The position numbers and the translations under genes were made by a program. Positions 53,420-59,598 of a stretch of 64,000 nucleotides of DNA are shown here, one piece after another. The stretch is from contig CANLUT010000001.1 in the NCBI GenBank assembly GCA_947494335.1, positions 434,001 to 498,000 of the forward strand, given 5' to 3'. Positions within the stretch are counted from its first letter, which is position 1. The number at the start of each line of letters is the position of its first letter. The notes beneath the pieces were generated by a model. It saw only the letters and a list, made by a program, of their open reading frames with translations, searched no databases and was not told the origin of the DNA. The DNA comes from Oligoflexales bacterium. Its GTDB lineage: Bacteria > Bdellovibrionota_B > Oligoflexia > Oligoflexales > RGVZ01.

Positions 53420-55156
53420 ATGTCGCGTCTTGGTGCATTTTTAGTCCAGGAAGGAATTTTGTCGGCGGCTGATCGGCAGATGATCAAGCGGGAGAGTGCG
53501 GCTTATCATGGCAGTTTCGCAAGATCAGTTCTAGCCATGGGGCTTTTGGACGAAGATGAGCTTACGGCTTTAATGGCTTCCAAGACAGGATGCCTCCAAG
53601 TGGCTAAAGATATCATGCATGATTTGGATCCTGCTGTTGCGACCCTCGTGCCATTACATGTTTTGGCATGGTTGGAGGTGGTTCCTTTATCTGTTAACGA
53701 TGGGTTACTGCGTTTGGCGATGGTCGATACAACGGATCAGGACGCTATCAATCAAGTGCGATTTTTCACCGGTTTGCGGATCAAGCCGATGATCGCAAAA
53801 CTAAGTGAAATTCATCGAGCCTTGCAACGGATTGGGGCTCCCATGGATATCGGAGAAAGCGGATTTGAAGGTTTACTGCGCACATTGGGCAGGCCTCCAC
53901 TTCCAGCGACCAGTAGAAAATCAACGGGAATGTTCAAACAGACCGACAGCCACATTTCTAATGCACGCGAGATGGTGGCTCCGCCAGCCTCGGCGTCTAG
54001 CAGCGTCGCCTCCAGTGTGCCATCTGGTGGATGGCTTGATGATGGTTTCCAAGAGCTAAATGATGAGTCGGATTTGGTGCAAGCGTCAAATCAAGTCGCC
54101 GCTGAGTCTGTGAGCTCTGATTTGGGATCAGATCCTTCTACCTCTGCAAATATGCAGGAGATAGCAGCCCCTCAAGATTATGAACAGAGCGTGCAAACAG
54201 ACATGGGTCCAGCGGATGAGCAGGCTATGCCGGCTCAAACTGAACAGGAAGATGAATTGCTGACTTCCAACGCAGAGCAAACGGCGAATCTTGACGCGAC
54301 CTTGAATGGTGAATTGAGCGAACGGACGGAAAAAGAAAACCAGATTGATGAGCTTGGGGCGCTTGATGTAGCTGCCCAAAATCTCGAGGCATCACAGACT
54401 CCAGCTGATTTTGATGCTTCAGGTCAAGACGTGGATTTGTCGTTAGATAAATCGGTCAAAGTGCAGCCTGAAGAAACTCTAAATCCAGAGATCCAGTCTG
54501 ATGAGAGCCTAGAGGCGTCAAAAGATTTTGCTGAGGATTTCGAGTCTGAAGAAACGGTCAAAGACGCCTTAGGTGATCAGGCCAACTCATTTGAACCGCA
54601 GTTTGGTGACCATCAGGATTTACCTGGCGATGTACAACCAGAGATTAGTGGAATTGAAGTCACTGCTGCGAATGAGCCTGACCTTGATTTGATTGGCTCG
54701 GAAGAGGCTATAATTGAGTCATCAAGTCATACTGGAATTGCAGATCTAAATCGTGTTTTAGTTTCGCTGCAAGTGACAACTGACACGGCGCGGGCTCTCA
54801 CCAAGGTAGCTGACGTGGCGTGCCGGGTTGGTATTGGGCAAGGGTTGCTGGCCATTGTTCGCGCCAACAATGAAGTTGTCTGTGTACGATGGGTGAAAGA
54901 TGGAACGCGATCAGACGTCTATCTTGAGCTGCCAGAGGGTCATGATGATGCCTCACTCAGAACAATAGTAGAAGGTCGGGAGCCTGATGCATGGTTTGAT
55001 CATTCTGATGTGGTCTTGGGGAATGTCACGCATGCCTTGGTGATGCACCCTGGGTCTCATACGGCGATTTGCCTGGCTGCATTTGTCGACTCTGCAAACC
55101 ACGAGGGGCTACGCCAGACATTCGCAGATGTGATCCGGGCCGTTCCTTTAGAGTAA
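53420..55156 (+). CDS. MshEN-domain protein with acidic linker and C-terminal domain
   Basis: A 578-residue cytoplasmic protein. Residues 1-140 match the MshEN (GspE N-terminal) domain: RLGAFLVQEGILSAADRQMI repeated in a second half, then SVLAMGLLDEDELTALMASKTG. MshEN domains of this type bind cyclic di-GMP in known ATPases. Residues 175-430 are low complexity and very acidic. The C-terminal 140 residues form an alpha/beta unit similar in outline to a GAF domain. There is no ATPase domain, unlike GspE. AAGGGG lies before the ATG. Its function, perhaps a c-di-GMP sensor, is inference. Confidence 0.7.
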   Translation: MSRLGAFLVQEGILSAADRQMIKRESAAYHGSFARSVLAMGLLDEDELTALMASKTGCLQVAKDIMHDLDPAVATLVPLHVLAWLEVVPLSVNDGLLRLAMVDTTDQDAINQVRFFTGLRIKPMIAKLSEIHRALQRIGAPMDIGESGFEGLLRTLGRPPLPATSRKSTGMFKQTDSHISNAREMVAPPASASSSVASSVPSGGWLDDGFQELNDESDLVQASNQVAAESVSSDLGSDPSTSANMQEIAAPQDYEQSVQTDMGPADEQAMPAQTEQEDELLTSNAEQTANLDATLNGELSERTEKENQIDELGALDVAAQNLEASQTPADFDASGQDVDLSLDKSVKVQPEETLNPEIQSDESLEASKDFAEDFESEETVKDALGDQANSFEPQFGDHQDLPGDVQPEISGIEVTAANEPDLDLIGSEEAIIESSSHTGIADLNRVLVSLQVTTDTARALTKVADVACRVGIGQGLLAIVRANNEVVCVRWVKDGTRSDVYLELPEGHDDASLRTIVEGREPDAWFDHSDVVLGNVTHALVMHPGSHTAICLAAFVDSANHEGLRQTFADVIRAVPLE

Positions 55157-55623: not shown

Positions 55624-56394
55624 CTAGGAAATCTCTTTGGCTAAGGACATGAAACTGGCCGTAAGCTTGTGTTTTGGTTTTGACTTTACCAGCGGCAGGC
55701 GATCGTCGTGACTCTCGCGCATGGCAACCGATGTTTGTAAAAATGGTTCAAACACCTTGATCCCAAGTGCGCGCACTCTTTCAAGTACTGACTTTGATTG
55801 CTTTGCATTGGCAATCCATTGATTCACAATCACTCCAGCGATTTGAAGATTGGGATTATGATCCTCTCTGACATCATCCACGACCCGTATAACTTCACTG
55901 AGCCCCGATACAGCAAAAGCGTCGCAATCAAATGGAATGAGTACTCGATCTGCTGCCATTAGGGCGCTCATGCTGTAAAAGTTCATCGCTGGTGGACAGT
56001 CGAGAATCACCTGCGAGAACTTTCCAGACTCAGTTAGTTCATTCAAAGCGTCACGAAGTTTAAAGATTTTGTAACGAGCTTCGAGTTTTGGTTGCATCTC
56101 GAATAGGCGACCATCAGCCGGTAAAACGAATAGATCGCTAATGGGCGTTGACTGCACGAATTCAGATAAAGAAGAGCCAAATAGGTTGATGCCGATGGTT
56201 GATTGGAAAAAATCACTGATAGTTTTTCCCTCAGGATGATCCGAATCAAATCCAAGGTAGTGAGACGCGTTGCCTTGGGCGTCCAAGTCAACCACAAGCG
56301 TCCTTTTCCCCTGCTGAGCAAAGCAAGCGGCAATATTGCAGGCAACTGACGTCTTGCCGACGCCACCTTTTTGATTGAAAACGGCAAACTTCAT
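55624..56394 (-). CDS. ParA family ATPase
   Basis: The 256-residue protein is a deviant Walker ATPase of the ParA/Soj group: FNQKGGVGKTSVACNIA with the signature Lys, VVDLDAQGNAS (motif A') and VILDCPPAMNF (Walker B). Such proteins position DNA or protein cargo. No parB is adjacent, so the cargo is unknown and chromosome partitioning is uncertain. The upstream side is the structured intergenic element at 56.46-56.74 kb. Confidence 0.88.
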   Translation of the reverse strand: MKFAVFNQKGGVGKTSVACNIAACFAQQGKRTLVVDLDAQGNASHYLGFDSDHPEGKTISDFFQSTIGINLFGSSLSEFVQSTPISDLFVLPADGRLFEMQPKLEARYKIFKLRDALNELTESGKFSQVILDCPPAMNFYSMSALMAADRVLIPFDCDAFAVSGLSEVIRVVDDVREDHNPNLQIAGVIVNQWIANAKQSKSVLERVRALGIKVFEPFLQTSVAMRESHDDRLPLVKSKPKHKLTASFMSLAKEIS

Positions 56395-56459: not shown

Positions 56460-56738
56460 TTACGGAGAATTTATGATGAAGATTTTGATGGGGATTGGAA
56501 GAGTTGAGAGAGAGTTGCTCGGCGGTTTAGAGGAGTGAGAGAGAAGAGTGGCAACAGGAAGAGCAACAGAATGGAATTTGATGAATCTTTATGACTGTTT
56601 CAAAAAAAGTGTCATGGTTTGATTCAATGTGAAAACCGCCGAACAACTCCACCAACCTGTTGGTTGGATGAGCTCTATTGTGCAGGACCCATGCCACAGC
56701 CTGGAGGGGGTGCATGGGGGCTGGGTCCTGTTATTTTA
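56460..56738 (+). ncRNA. Candidate structured RNA, family unknown
   Basis: This gap between two minus-strand genes contains nested complementary segments on the plus strand. GTTG (56514-17) plus CGGCGGTTT (56520-28) pair with AAACCGCCG (56633-41) plus CAAC (56644-47), a 13-pair stem with a small internal loop. Inside it TGAATC (56582-87) pairs with GATTCA (56621-26) and ATGAC (56591-95) with GTCAT (56611-15). Next comes a CCAACC-TGTT-GGTTGG hairpin (56652-67), then a terminator-like hairpin. It does not match tmRNA, RNase P RNA, SRP RNA or 6S RNA in a way I can recognise. A short ORF (56473-56538) overlaps its 5' part. An opposite-strand role is possible. Confidence 0.55.
56683..56738 (+). 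terminator. Rho-independent terminator of the candidate RNA
   Basis: CAGGACCCA at 56683-56691 pairs with TGGGTCCTG at 56722-56730. A T-rich tract (TTATTTTA, 56731-56738) follows. The inner sequence also allows CCCATGC to pair with GCATGGG. The T tract occurs only on the plus strand, so transcription from left to right would end here. Confidence 0.6.
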
Positions 56739-56798
56739 GGCAGTTAGATCCATTAGCGTAAGCTCAGCTGTCCGTTAACCCGACAAATTGTCTCAGAC

Positions 56799-57782
56799 TT
56801 AGACAGTCGTCCGACCCTTTGAGTGAGGGAATACGGAGCGAAGGTTCTCTTTAAGTGATTCTAAAGTATGGATCTGTAAAACTCGGTTTAAAAGTTCTGG
56901 GTTTTTGAGGGTGCAGACGCCGCCCCACCAGATCTGACATGAAGGTGAAATCTTATTTTGAAGATCTCGCGCATAGGTTTCCTGCCGCTGTTCGCCAAAA
57001 GGTTCAGCTGAGGGCGTGTTGCCCACAATGACGATGTCAGCGTTGACCGCGCGGGCAGCATCCGCTAGAGCCGCTGACGGCAAGTTTGGACCGAAGTAGT
57101 GAGGCACGTGACCTTCGTTGGCAACCAAGATAGCTGAGGCTAGAATTCCGAATTCATGGAGGTCACCGTCACGGGTCGCGAGACATATGGAGAGGCCGTG
57201 CTCTTGATCTTTTCGCGTGAATGCGCGGACGGCGATCGCATTTCTTAGATTAAATAACGTTTGCATCAATTGAGCGCGCAGGATGGATGACAATGCGTGC
57301 TCTTGTGCAATGCTGAAGGTCCCATTGTAAACACGCGCCCCGACATCGCGCAAAAGAGGCACAGCAATCTGCGTCAAAAAATGCTCTGCTGATATCAGAT
57401 TTCGCGCCGCTTCAAGTTCGGCTTGAATCAATACCAGTTCATACTTTTCCAAGGCAGCGATACAGCGGCCAAGAATCAATTGTTCAACGGGTGGCGCTGC
57501 TATTTTGGCATCACCGGGTTCGCTCATCAACATCGTCTCGAGAATGTCATTGGACAGTCCTGCGATGTGACTGATTTGATGACCTTGACGCACGAGTCTA
57601 GCCAACAGTGAGAGGCGCTCGACGTCGCGCTGGGAGTATTGACGGCGGTTGTTGGCCTCGTTGCGATCGGGGTCGAGAGCTTTGTAGCGACGCTCCCAAG
57701 CGCGAATCGTATGGGAGTTCATATCAACAATGCGCGCTGTCGTTTTAATACTAAATTTTTGGATCAGGCTTGGCTCACTCAT
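56799..57782 (-). CDS. MerR-type regulator with B12-binding domain (CarH/LitR-like)
   Basis: A 327-residue protein. Residues 10-75 are a MerR helix-turn-helix (FSIKTTARIVDMNSHTIRAWERRYKAL). The C-terminal part matches the B12 domain of CarH/LitR photoreceptors: helix with EH at 161-162 and the cobalamin-ligand motif DLHEFG (His209). The tryptophan ten positions before the EH pair, W-x9-EH in CarH, is Val151 here. Light sensing through coenzyme B12 is therefore possible but may be altered. It lies six bases after folE on the same strand, in the mrp-folE operon. Confidence 0.85.
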   Translation of the reverse strand: MSEPSLIQKFSIKTTARIVDMNSHTIRAWERRYKALDPDRNEANNRRQYSQRDVERLSLLARLVRQGHQISHIAGLSNDILETMLMSEPGDAKIAAPPVEQLILGRCIAALEKYELVLIQAELEAARNLISAEHFLTQIAVPLLRDVGARVYNGTFSIAQEHALSSILRAQLMQTLFNLRNAIAVRAFTRKDQEHGLSICLATRDGDLHEFGILASAILVANEGHVPHYFGPNLPSAALADAARAVNADIVIVGNTPSAEPFGEQRQETYARDLQNKISPSCQIWWGGVCTLKNPELLNRVLQIHTLESLKENLRSVFPHSKGRTTV

Positions 57783-57787
57783 GATGA

Positions 57788-58420
57788 TTATTTCCCTTCT
57801 AATGCAGCAAAAAGTCTTTGCTGTTCCAAATTCGTTAAGGTCTCAACACCGAGAGTTGTTTCGCTTAAAGTTGAGGACATTTGTTTTTCAACGCCGCGCA
57901 TCATCATACAAAGATGCTTGCCACTGATGCGCACCGCTAAAGCACGCGGCTGAAGTAATTCGTTGAGGGCTTGTGCAATCTGGCTCGTTAGATGTTCTTG
58001 GACTTGCAAACGGCGAGCAAACAAGTCGACCAATCTGGGTATTTTGCTGAGTCCGATAATTTTACGAGTGGGGTAGTAGGCGACAGAAACTTCGCCCCAG
58101 AAGGGAAGCATGTGATGTTCACAAAGGCTGTAAAATTCAACATTGTTGACGCTAACGACACCGGAGTTATCTGATGTAAATAGTCCTTCACCAACGACTT
58201 GTTCTGGCGTCGTCTCGTAGCCAGACAGCAAAAACCCCATGGCTTTAGCAAAGCGGTCTGGCGTGCGCTGGAGTCCTTCGCGAAGTGGGTTTTCTGACTT
58301 GGCAGAGCCAATGATTAACTGGCCTGCGATAGCTAGACGCTGCTTCTGATCAAGGCCTGTAAAGATATCAGGAAGTCGTGCGTAGCTTTTTGAAATGGAA
58401 TCTTTATTGGGCATGGTCAT
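57788..58420 (-). CDS. folE: GTP cyclohydrolase I
   Basis: Converts GTP to dihydroneopterin triphosphate for folate and other pterins. The 210-residue protein has the zinc/catalytic pattern SLCEHHMLPFWG, GLSKIPRLVDLFARRLQ, and HLCMMMRGVEKQ, with the catalytic Cys and His in place. Its ATG overlaps the stop of the mrp gene by four bases (ATGA), and the MerR/B12 gene follows six bases later, so the three form one operon. Confidence 0.96.
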   Translation of the reverse strand: MTMPNKDSISKSYARLPDIFTGLDQKQRLAIAGQLIIGSAKSENPLREGLQRTPDRFAKAMGFLLSGYETTPEQVVGEGLFTSDNSGVVSVNNVEFYSLCEHHMLPFWGEVSVAYYPTRKIIGLSKIPRLVDLFARRLQVQEHLTSQIAQALNELLQPRALAVRISGKHLCMMMRGVEKQMSSTLSETTLGVETLTNLEQQRLFAALEGK

Positions 58421-59598
58421 AGCTGCTTCTCCAGATTTGTATCTACTCGCAGTGTTTGCGAGATTGCCGTTTTTACGAAGTCCGCCAGTTGGCGGTATGG
58501 ATGTGATGATTTGCTGGTATCGTCAAGAACTACGGGTTGCCCTTGGTCACTCAGCTCTCTGATATTTCGGCTCAAAGGAATTGACGTAATCAAGCCAAGT
58601 TTGCGTGAGGTCAAAAAGCCAGCGAACGACTCGGAACCAAAGATATGCTCTTCATGCCCGCAAGCCGTACACGTGTAGTGGGACATATTCTCCACAACGC
58701 CTAATACGGGTACATTCATTTTCTCAAACATGGAAACTGCTTTGTGAGCGTCGATCAAGGCAACGTCTTGCGGCGTTGTGACAATGACGGAACCTGTCAG
58801 AGGGAGTTTTTCTGCTAATGTCATCTGGACATCGCCCGTTCCGGGTGGAAGATCCAGCACCAGAACATCAAGCTCTCCCCAAGCCACGTCGTAGCAAAGT
58901 TGCTCGATCGCCTTGGCAACCATTGGTCCTCGCCAAATGACGGGAGATTTTACATCGGTAAGAAACCCAAAGCTGACAACTTTGACGCCGTGCCCTTCGA
59001 GCGGAACCAACTTGGATTTTTCAACGGGCATGGATCCCGATACGCCGAGCATGAGTGGTGACGAGGGTCCATAAACGTCACAATCCATGAGCCCAGTCTT
59101 AAGCCCAACTCTTGCAAGACCAGCGGCTAAATTTGTTGAAACTGTTGATTTGCCAACGCCACCTTTACCGGAGGCGACGGCGATGATCGCTTTAACTCCA
59201 GCAATGGGTTTAGTCTCAAGATTAAGTCCGAGTGGATGTTTCTTTTTCACAGGCGCCGGAGCGGATTCGCCGGCGCGTGCAGAGCTCGATCGCTGGAAGT
59301 AAATGGCAACGTCCGATAATTCCTGGTTGCCAAAGTGACGGAGTAGCGTGCGCTCAACGACGAGTTTTTGATCAAGCGATAGGCCGGTTGAGTCAACGCG
59401 CACTTGAGGACGGCCGTCACTGGCGGAGGAGACTCCTAGCACTCTAGCTCTAGTTTGAGCGTGATCGGCGTCGCTTAATCCTGATTCTGGAAGCTGCGCG
59501 GCCATGACTAAGCCTGCCATCGCTTCGCGCCTGATGCTTTCGGCTATCTGCGGTGATAATTGCTGTTGATCGTTATGGGTCATTTCGATTCGGTCCAA
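58417..59598 (-). CDS. Mrp/ApbC-family Fe-S cluster carrier ATPase
   Basis: A 393-residue ATPase of the Mrp/NBP35 group. The N-terminal ~110 residues resemble the MIP18 (DUF59) fusion domain. Residues 130-160 hold the deviant Walker motif VASGKGGVGKSTVSTNLA, then GLMDCDVYGPSSPLMLG, and the cluster ligands CTACGHEEH. Such proteins carry Fe-S clusters to apoproteins. A TTG start at 59598 has AGGAG eight bases upstream; an ATG five codons later is the alternative. It heads the mrp-folE-MerR/B12 operon. Confidence 0.92.
   Translation of the reverse strand: MDRIEMTHNDQQQLSPQIAESIRREAMAGLVMAAQLPESGLSDADHAQTRARVLGVSSASDGRPQVRVDSTGLSLDQKLVVERTLLRHFGNQELSDVAIYFQRSSSARAGESAPAPVKKKHPLGLNLETKPIAGVKAIIAVASGKGGVGKSTVSTNLAAGLARVGLKTGLMDCDVYGPSSPLMLGVSGSMPVEKSKLVPLEGHGVKVVSFGFLTDVKSPVIWRGPMVAKAIEQLCYDVAWGELDVLVLDLPPGTGDVQMTLAEKLPLTGSVIVTTPQDVALIDAHKAVSMFEKMNVPVLGVVENMSHYTCTACGHEEHIFGSESFAGFLTSRKLGLITSIPLSRNIRELSDQGQPVVLDDTSKSSHPYRQLADFVKTAISQTLRVDTNLEKQL

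Follow-up and report, generated by a model that had tools for sequence, protein, structure and literature searches.

A sigma-54-associated structured RNA family in Oligoflexales, predicted to act in trans and possibly as a decoy

An intergenic element in the window (the whole 64,000-nucleotide stretch of Oligoflexales DNA analysed here) very probably encodes a sigma-54-dependent structured non-coding RNA, and comparison with related genomes assigns that predicted RNA to an uncatalogued family spread across Oligoflexales (Bdellovibrionota). On this comparative evidence, all of the stems in the element are parts of one minus-strand RNA that runs from about position 56669 down to 56508 (Table 1). 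The inferred +1 lies near 56669 and the closing stem ends at 56512, with 56508 serving as a working limit rather than an established 3′ end. Structure, strand, promoter, palindromes, conservation, and regulon were all computed here.

Table 1. Features of the RNA locus, in window coordinates.
Feature	Position	Strand	Evidence
Predicted structured RNA	56508..56669	-	~160 bases; covariance models R1-R3, 21 homologues, covariation
5′ hairpin CCAACC-AACA-GGTTGG	56652..56667	-	7/7 helix pairs with two-sided changes in the model-fitted alignment A7
Long closing stem, 5′ arm	56633..56649	-	17/18 modelled pairs with two-sided changes
Long closing stem, 3′ arm	56512..56528	-	Pairs with 56633..56649; 17/18 modelled pairs with two-sided changes
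Inner two-part hairpin	56582..56626	-	4/6 modelled pairs with two-sided changes; 92.4% of cells paired
Unpaired, pyrimidine-rich strand carrying YGUUG repeats (CTGTTGCTCTTCCTGTTG)	56529..56581	-	YGTTG enrichment compared with shuffles
Putative sigma-54 -24/-12 promoter TGGCATGGGTCCTGCA	56681..56696	-	GG and GC 10 bases apart; counterpart in 21/21 homologues
Proximal enhancer-like palindrome UAS2 TGTCgggttaacgGACA	56769..56785	-	Exact TGTC-N9-GACA at -89
Distal enhancer-like palindrome UAS1 TGTCtaagtctgaGACA	56789..56805	-	Exact TGTC-N9-GACA, 109 bases upstream of the -24 element
Rest of GC-rich hairpin and TTATTTTA tract, earlier taken for a terminator	56699..56738	+	Upstream of the RNA's promoter; weak 5-pair terminator-like match

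The stems described in a sequence-only reading of the element are present. The long closing stem is complementary at 16 of 17 positions and extends slightly beyond the 56514-28/56633-47 pairing proposed in that reading, and the inner two-part hairpin and the small hairpin, which reads CCAACC-TGTT-GGTTGG on the plus strand, lie where they had been placed. The element folds better than 200 of 200 dinucleotide shuffles on either strand. Compensating base changes in relatives, which had been proposed as a check on the structure, occur in number: among 13 homologues, 28 of 31 pairs show two-sided changes compared with 14.7 in shuffles, with 84 two-sided-change cells compared with 26.5, and none of 500 shuffles reaches any of these measures. 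In the same 13 homologues 88.0% of cells are paired, against 22-46% in slid controls. Alignments A6 and A7 were fitted to the model and are biased to its structure, whereas A5 was not fitted; a six-sequence MAFFT alignment that was not model-fitted gives 17 two-sided pairs compared with 6.4 in shuffles (0/500). The closing stems of G004, from the same genus, and G038, from another family, have been rewritten in sequence with pairing retained. The 5′ hairpin is missing from the G007-G009 group, and CCACATT or a close variant precedes the inner hairpin in most members.

The family was assembled with three covariance models. R1, seeded with four RNAs and leaving out the promoter, gained two members, G004 (E 2.6e-8) and G038 (E 0.0056), with E-values that are rough because calibration was short and genomes that are drafts. 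With the promoter included, R2 and R3 enlarged the set to 21 RNAs from 19 of 43 Oligoflexales genomes in four families, a lower bound because the first pass scored part of the candidates and absence from the other 24 genomes is unproven. Among 53 genomes from beyond Oligoflexales, only two partial, weak matches were found; weak partial model matches in G059 and G047, which lack the promoter end, were left out of the count. One genome, G035, carries three copies (L069, L088; C13), two of them in tandem ~400 bases apart, and the third copy has an array of CCCGTTGTT units (CCCGUUGUU-like) in place of the pyrimidine-rich strand. Kept separate from the members is L073 of G014 (L073:1501-1647; C23:88201-88347), which has a weak model match, a sigma-54 promoter, a palindrome at -146, C/U-rich GTTG repeats, and a strong intrinsic terminator, lacks the long closing stem, and is possibly a divergent paralogue judging from these features. 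The earlier reading had matched the element to no known structured RNA class, and Rfam agrees, returning nothing credible for the element or its homologues at gathering or relaxed thresholds. The tmRNA was set aside as a candidate, the genome's own copy being elsewhere (C2:71429).

The RNA gene is apparently switched on by a sigma-54 promoter, judging from conserved elements just upstream on the minus strand. In an alignment of the window with BLAST matches from three genomes of the same genus, the minus-strand -24/-12 elements are TGGCATGGGTCCTGCA, TGGCATGGGTCGTGCA, TGGCACGGGAGCTGCA, and TGGCACGGCTCGTGCA, and a conserved ATCC/ATCT start always lies 11 bases past them. Because R2 and R3 include the promoter, its presence in members known only through these models is not independent support. 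For G004 and G038, found by the promoter-free R1, support for the -24/-12 element is independent of the model: in each, a perfect element, TGGCAC-N6-TGCA, closely precedes the RNA, with TGTC-N9-GACA at -112 and -122. Sigma54_DBD / RpoN is encoded in 13 of 13 genomes tested, the window's genome (G000) encodes 11 full-length PF00158 activators, and a scan of the window stretch found no sigma-70 promoter.

Upstream of the promoter are two enhancer-like palindromes, the distal of which overlaps the 3′ end of a merR gene. The same TGTC-N9-GACA palindrome occurs in eight other homologues, from -91 to -132, and is exact in 9/21 members and not exact in the other 12/21 (for example G007-G009, G023, and G035). 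It is part of no model, and is found in 4/13 members outside the R1 seed compared with 0.02 in shuffles. With spacers from N5 to N14 tested, 10 of 12 occurrences have N9 and none has N10, a spacing that disfavours a plain GlrR site for the activator.

The window's genome contains four instances of the palindrome together with the promoter, compared with none in a backward control. The four sites precede the RNA, an Endonuclease_NS protein (a non-specific endonuclease), an M14 peptidase, and a lipoprotein, and the three proteins have signal-peptide-like starts by eye. The genes for the exported nuclease, lipoprotein, and M14 peptidase lie at loci L041, L043, and L044 of this genome (C1:298988, C1:633828, C7:11878). 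The pattern is kept before lipoprotein orthologues in G002 and G005 and before M14 orthologues in G001 and G003; some matches in other families lie within genes and look like chance. Since the same palindrome and promoter precede genes for exported proteins, the RNA would be a member of a small sigma-54 regulon. At L101 (G004 C221:7288-7411), a lipoprotein mRNA start with the same promoter pattern holds CCGTTGTTGCTCTTGCTG, close to the repeated word of the RNA, which may merely reflect the leucine codons of a signal peptide.

We consider it likely that this is a sigma-54-driven, trans-acting RNA, with decoy action as the preferred mode. In this model, an enhancer-binding activator would bind TGTC-N9-GACA, ~90-130 bases upstream of the promoter, and enable sigma-54 RNA polymerase to produce a free-standing minus-strand RNA of ~160 bases. 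The predicted fold consists of a 5′ hairpin plus a long closing stem that keeps a large loop open, with the inner hairpin on one side and the pyrimidine-rich YGUUG strand on the other, and the RNA would act in trans within the small sigma-54 regulon of exported proteins. Once the regulon is switched on, the YGUUG repeats could titrate away an RNA-binding regulator, much as CrcZ titrates Hfq, and thereby release or repress other transcripts. Transcription, action in trans, and decoy behaviour are our inferences, the last of these tentative, at slightly below an even chance. The word itself is strongly over-represented, with YGTTG occurring 24 times in 13 of 16 representatives compared with 2.6 in shuffles, motif counts here being inflated by shared ancestry. 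A variable copy number of a short, exposed word is the pattern expected of a protein decoy. A still more specific proposal, that the RNA founds a new class of sigma-54-controlled decoys with its own word, YGUUG in a pyrimidine-rich strand, and by titrating an RNA-binding regulator couples a programme of exported proteins to post-transcriptional control, we regard as rather unlikely on present evidence.

The same loop could instead base-pair in trans, its C/U-rich strand pairing with purine-rich ribosome-binding regions and repressing several mRNAs when the regulon is on. This mode is a genuine possibility, if a minority one: pyrimidines make up 62-84% of the strand, which is mostly unpaired, TTCC is found 22 times compared with 13.4 in shuffles, and sigma-54 sRNAs of such a kind are known in Qrr, which is of the multi-target type, and GlmZ. 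However, the most enriched word, YGUUG, is not an anti-Shine-Dalgarno sequence, and CTCC is not enriched (19 compared with 14.6). When the loop strand was screened for duplexes with the three co-regulated start regions, the result was also unremarkable (ranks 34, 9, and 44 of 65), the co-regulated mRNAs pairing no better than background. This screen weakens the case for antisense control of the three co-regulated genes; it does not thereby prove the decoy.

Both modes suppose a minus-strand RNA, whereas the sequence-only reading implied the plus strand, with an RNA ending at the GC-rich hairpin followed by TTATTTTA. The hairpin repeat exists (56683-56698 with 56715-56730, 81% complementary), but its proposed role as a terminator gives way to the conserved minus-strand sigma-54 promoter at the same place. 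A weak terminator-like match is indeed found on the plus strand, and this strand, too, is more stably folded than its shuffles (z = -4.19). Against this, the terminator-like match is near chance expectation (1 found, 0.5 expected), and its counterpart is weak in G002 and absent in G003; folding is stronger on the minus strand (z = -6.40; 200 dinucleotide shuffles, 0/200 as good on either strand). The strand is indicated further by 29 GU cells on the minus strand compared with 9 AC cells, which would be GU on the plus strand, an asymmetry that the covariance models do not use. With this asymmetry and the conserved promoter both pointing to the minus strand, a plus-strand RNA is very improbable. 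A CsrA sponge built on plus-strand GGA motifs was dropped once the strand was settled as minus. A point against the minus-strand reading is that, in the window, the closing stem is not followed by an intrinsic terminator.

Gene order bears on the other readings proposed for the element. The window's order, mrp-folE-merR-RNA-parA-MshEN, unites contexts that are seen separately in relatives. Just upstream of the RNA are mrp in G014, G025, G029, G032, G033, and G035, folE-merR in G000, G002, and G005, and merR in G004, and an MshEN protein gene is convergent downstream in G003, G005, G007, G008, and G009. Such synteny, on either the upstream or the downstream side, is found at 14/20 loci tested and was not used in the models; by eye, G038, G023, and G029 also have a downstream gene in common. 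In the window, three minus-strand genes at 56799-59598 follow one another: one for a MerR-type regulator carrying B12-binding domains, folE (encoding GTP cyclohydrolase I), and mrp. This row, whole or in part, adjoins the RNA across the order. The MshEN-domain protein (53420-55156), whose gene is convergent with the RNA in several relatives, has a long, acidic, low-complexity middle. Between it and the RNA in G000 is the gene for a ParA-like ATPase (55624-56394).

That the element is a 5′ leader, a cis regulator of this ParA-like gene, is highly improbable. The gene is on the same strand in G000 and G002, with a gap in the window of ~118 bases from the closing stem, and in G002 it directly follows the RNA. 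However, these are the only two genomes in which parA stands beside the RNA; an opposite-strand gene is convergent in G003-G005 and G007-G009, and the third G035 copy is closed by an intrinsic terminator right after its stem. Because parA is absent beside most homologues, gene order appears largely to refute the leader reading, and parA in this position looks like a recent insertion. Nor does the suggestion of a mobile repeat fit, since the RNA is single-copy in the window's genome, with one full match. A small regulatory RNA is thus the survivor of the three options first offered. The least probable reading of all is a short secreted-peptide gene, suggested by a signal-peptide-like frame of 44 codons in G002: ATG frames of 44-59 codons occur in G002, G003, and G004, but in G000 and G005 the frame is broken after 8 and 4 codons, respectively, an ATG frame is lacking in the G023 RNA, and base pairs are what selection acts on. 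No conserved reading frame was found in the RNA, and the peptide as a family-wide property was rejected.

A limited literature search found no paper describing a small RNA in Oligoflexia. The predicted family, found in several families of this poorly known order with kinship to bacterial predators, can now be defined by its promoter, enhancer motif, structure, and genomic setting. The enhancer motif is shared by a small regulon of exported hydrolases and lipoproteins, which would allow a single activator, a single RNA, and a single secretion-type programme to be tested together. If the RNA is a decoy, the YGUUG word would point to a new RNA-binding regulator.

Known RNAs share individual traits with the present one. 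6S RNA likewise has a long rod-like stem with an internal loop; it was rejected as an identity for the element, as the genome's one 6S match (RF00013) is elsewhere, at C1:300143-300330. The c-di-GMP riboswitch RNA merRNA differs in that the present RNA matches no riboswitch family. In the wider predator group, merRNA is described as a non-coding RNA of Bdellovibrio bacteriovorus (PMC3627812). Qrr RNAs (sigma-54/LuxO, Vibrio), described as base-pairing sRNAs of gamma-proteobacteria (PMC10162802, PMC3352281), resemble the present RNA in being sigma-54-driven and possibly multi-copy (three in G035), but the present RNA has no Rfam match to them. CrcZ/CrcY (sigma-54/CbrB, Pseudomonas) are also sigma-54-dependent with repeated short motifs, and in CrcZ several A-rich motifs serve to titrate Hfq (PMC4063720). 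In contrast, the repeats of the present RNA are YGUUG in a C/U-rich strand rather than A-R-N, again with no Rfam match. GlmY/GlmZ (sigma-54/GlrR, Enterobacteria) are sigma-54-dependent sRNAs with the same activator half-sites, and GlmY is described as a decoy for RapZ (PMC7073468). The GlrR site is TGTC(N)10GACA (PMC4987338), whereas the spacer here is N9 in 10 sites and N10 in none, and the present RNA comes from a different phylum, has no Rfam match to either RNA, and consists of one long stem with a pyrimidine-rich loop. Therefore, with no Rfam match, an N9 rather than N10 spacer, and YGUUG rather than A-rich repeats, the present RNA belongs with none of GlmY/GlmZ, CrcZ/CrcY, or Qrr; it would work like these sigma-54-controlled RNAs and yet appears to form a new family.
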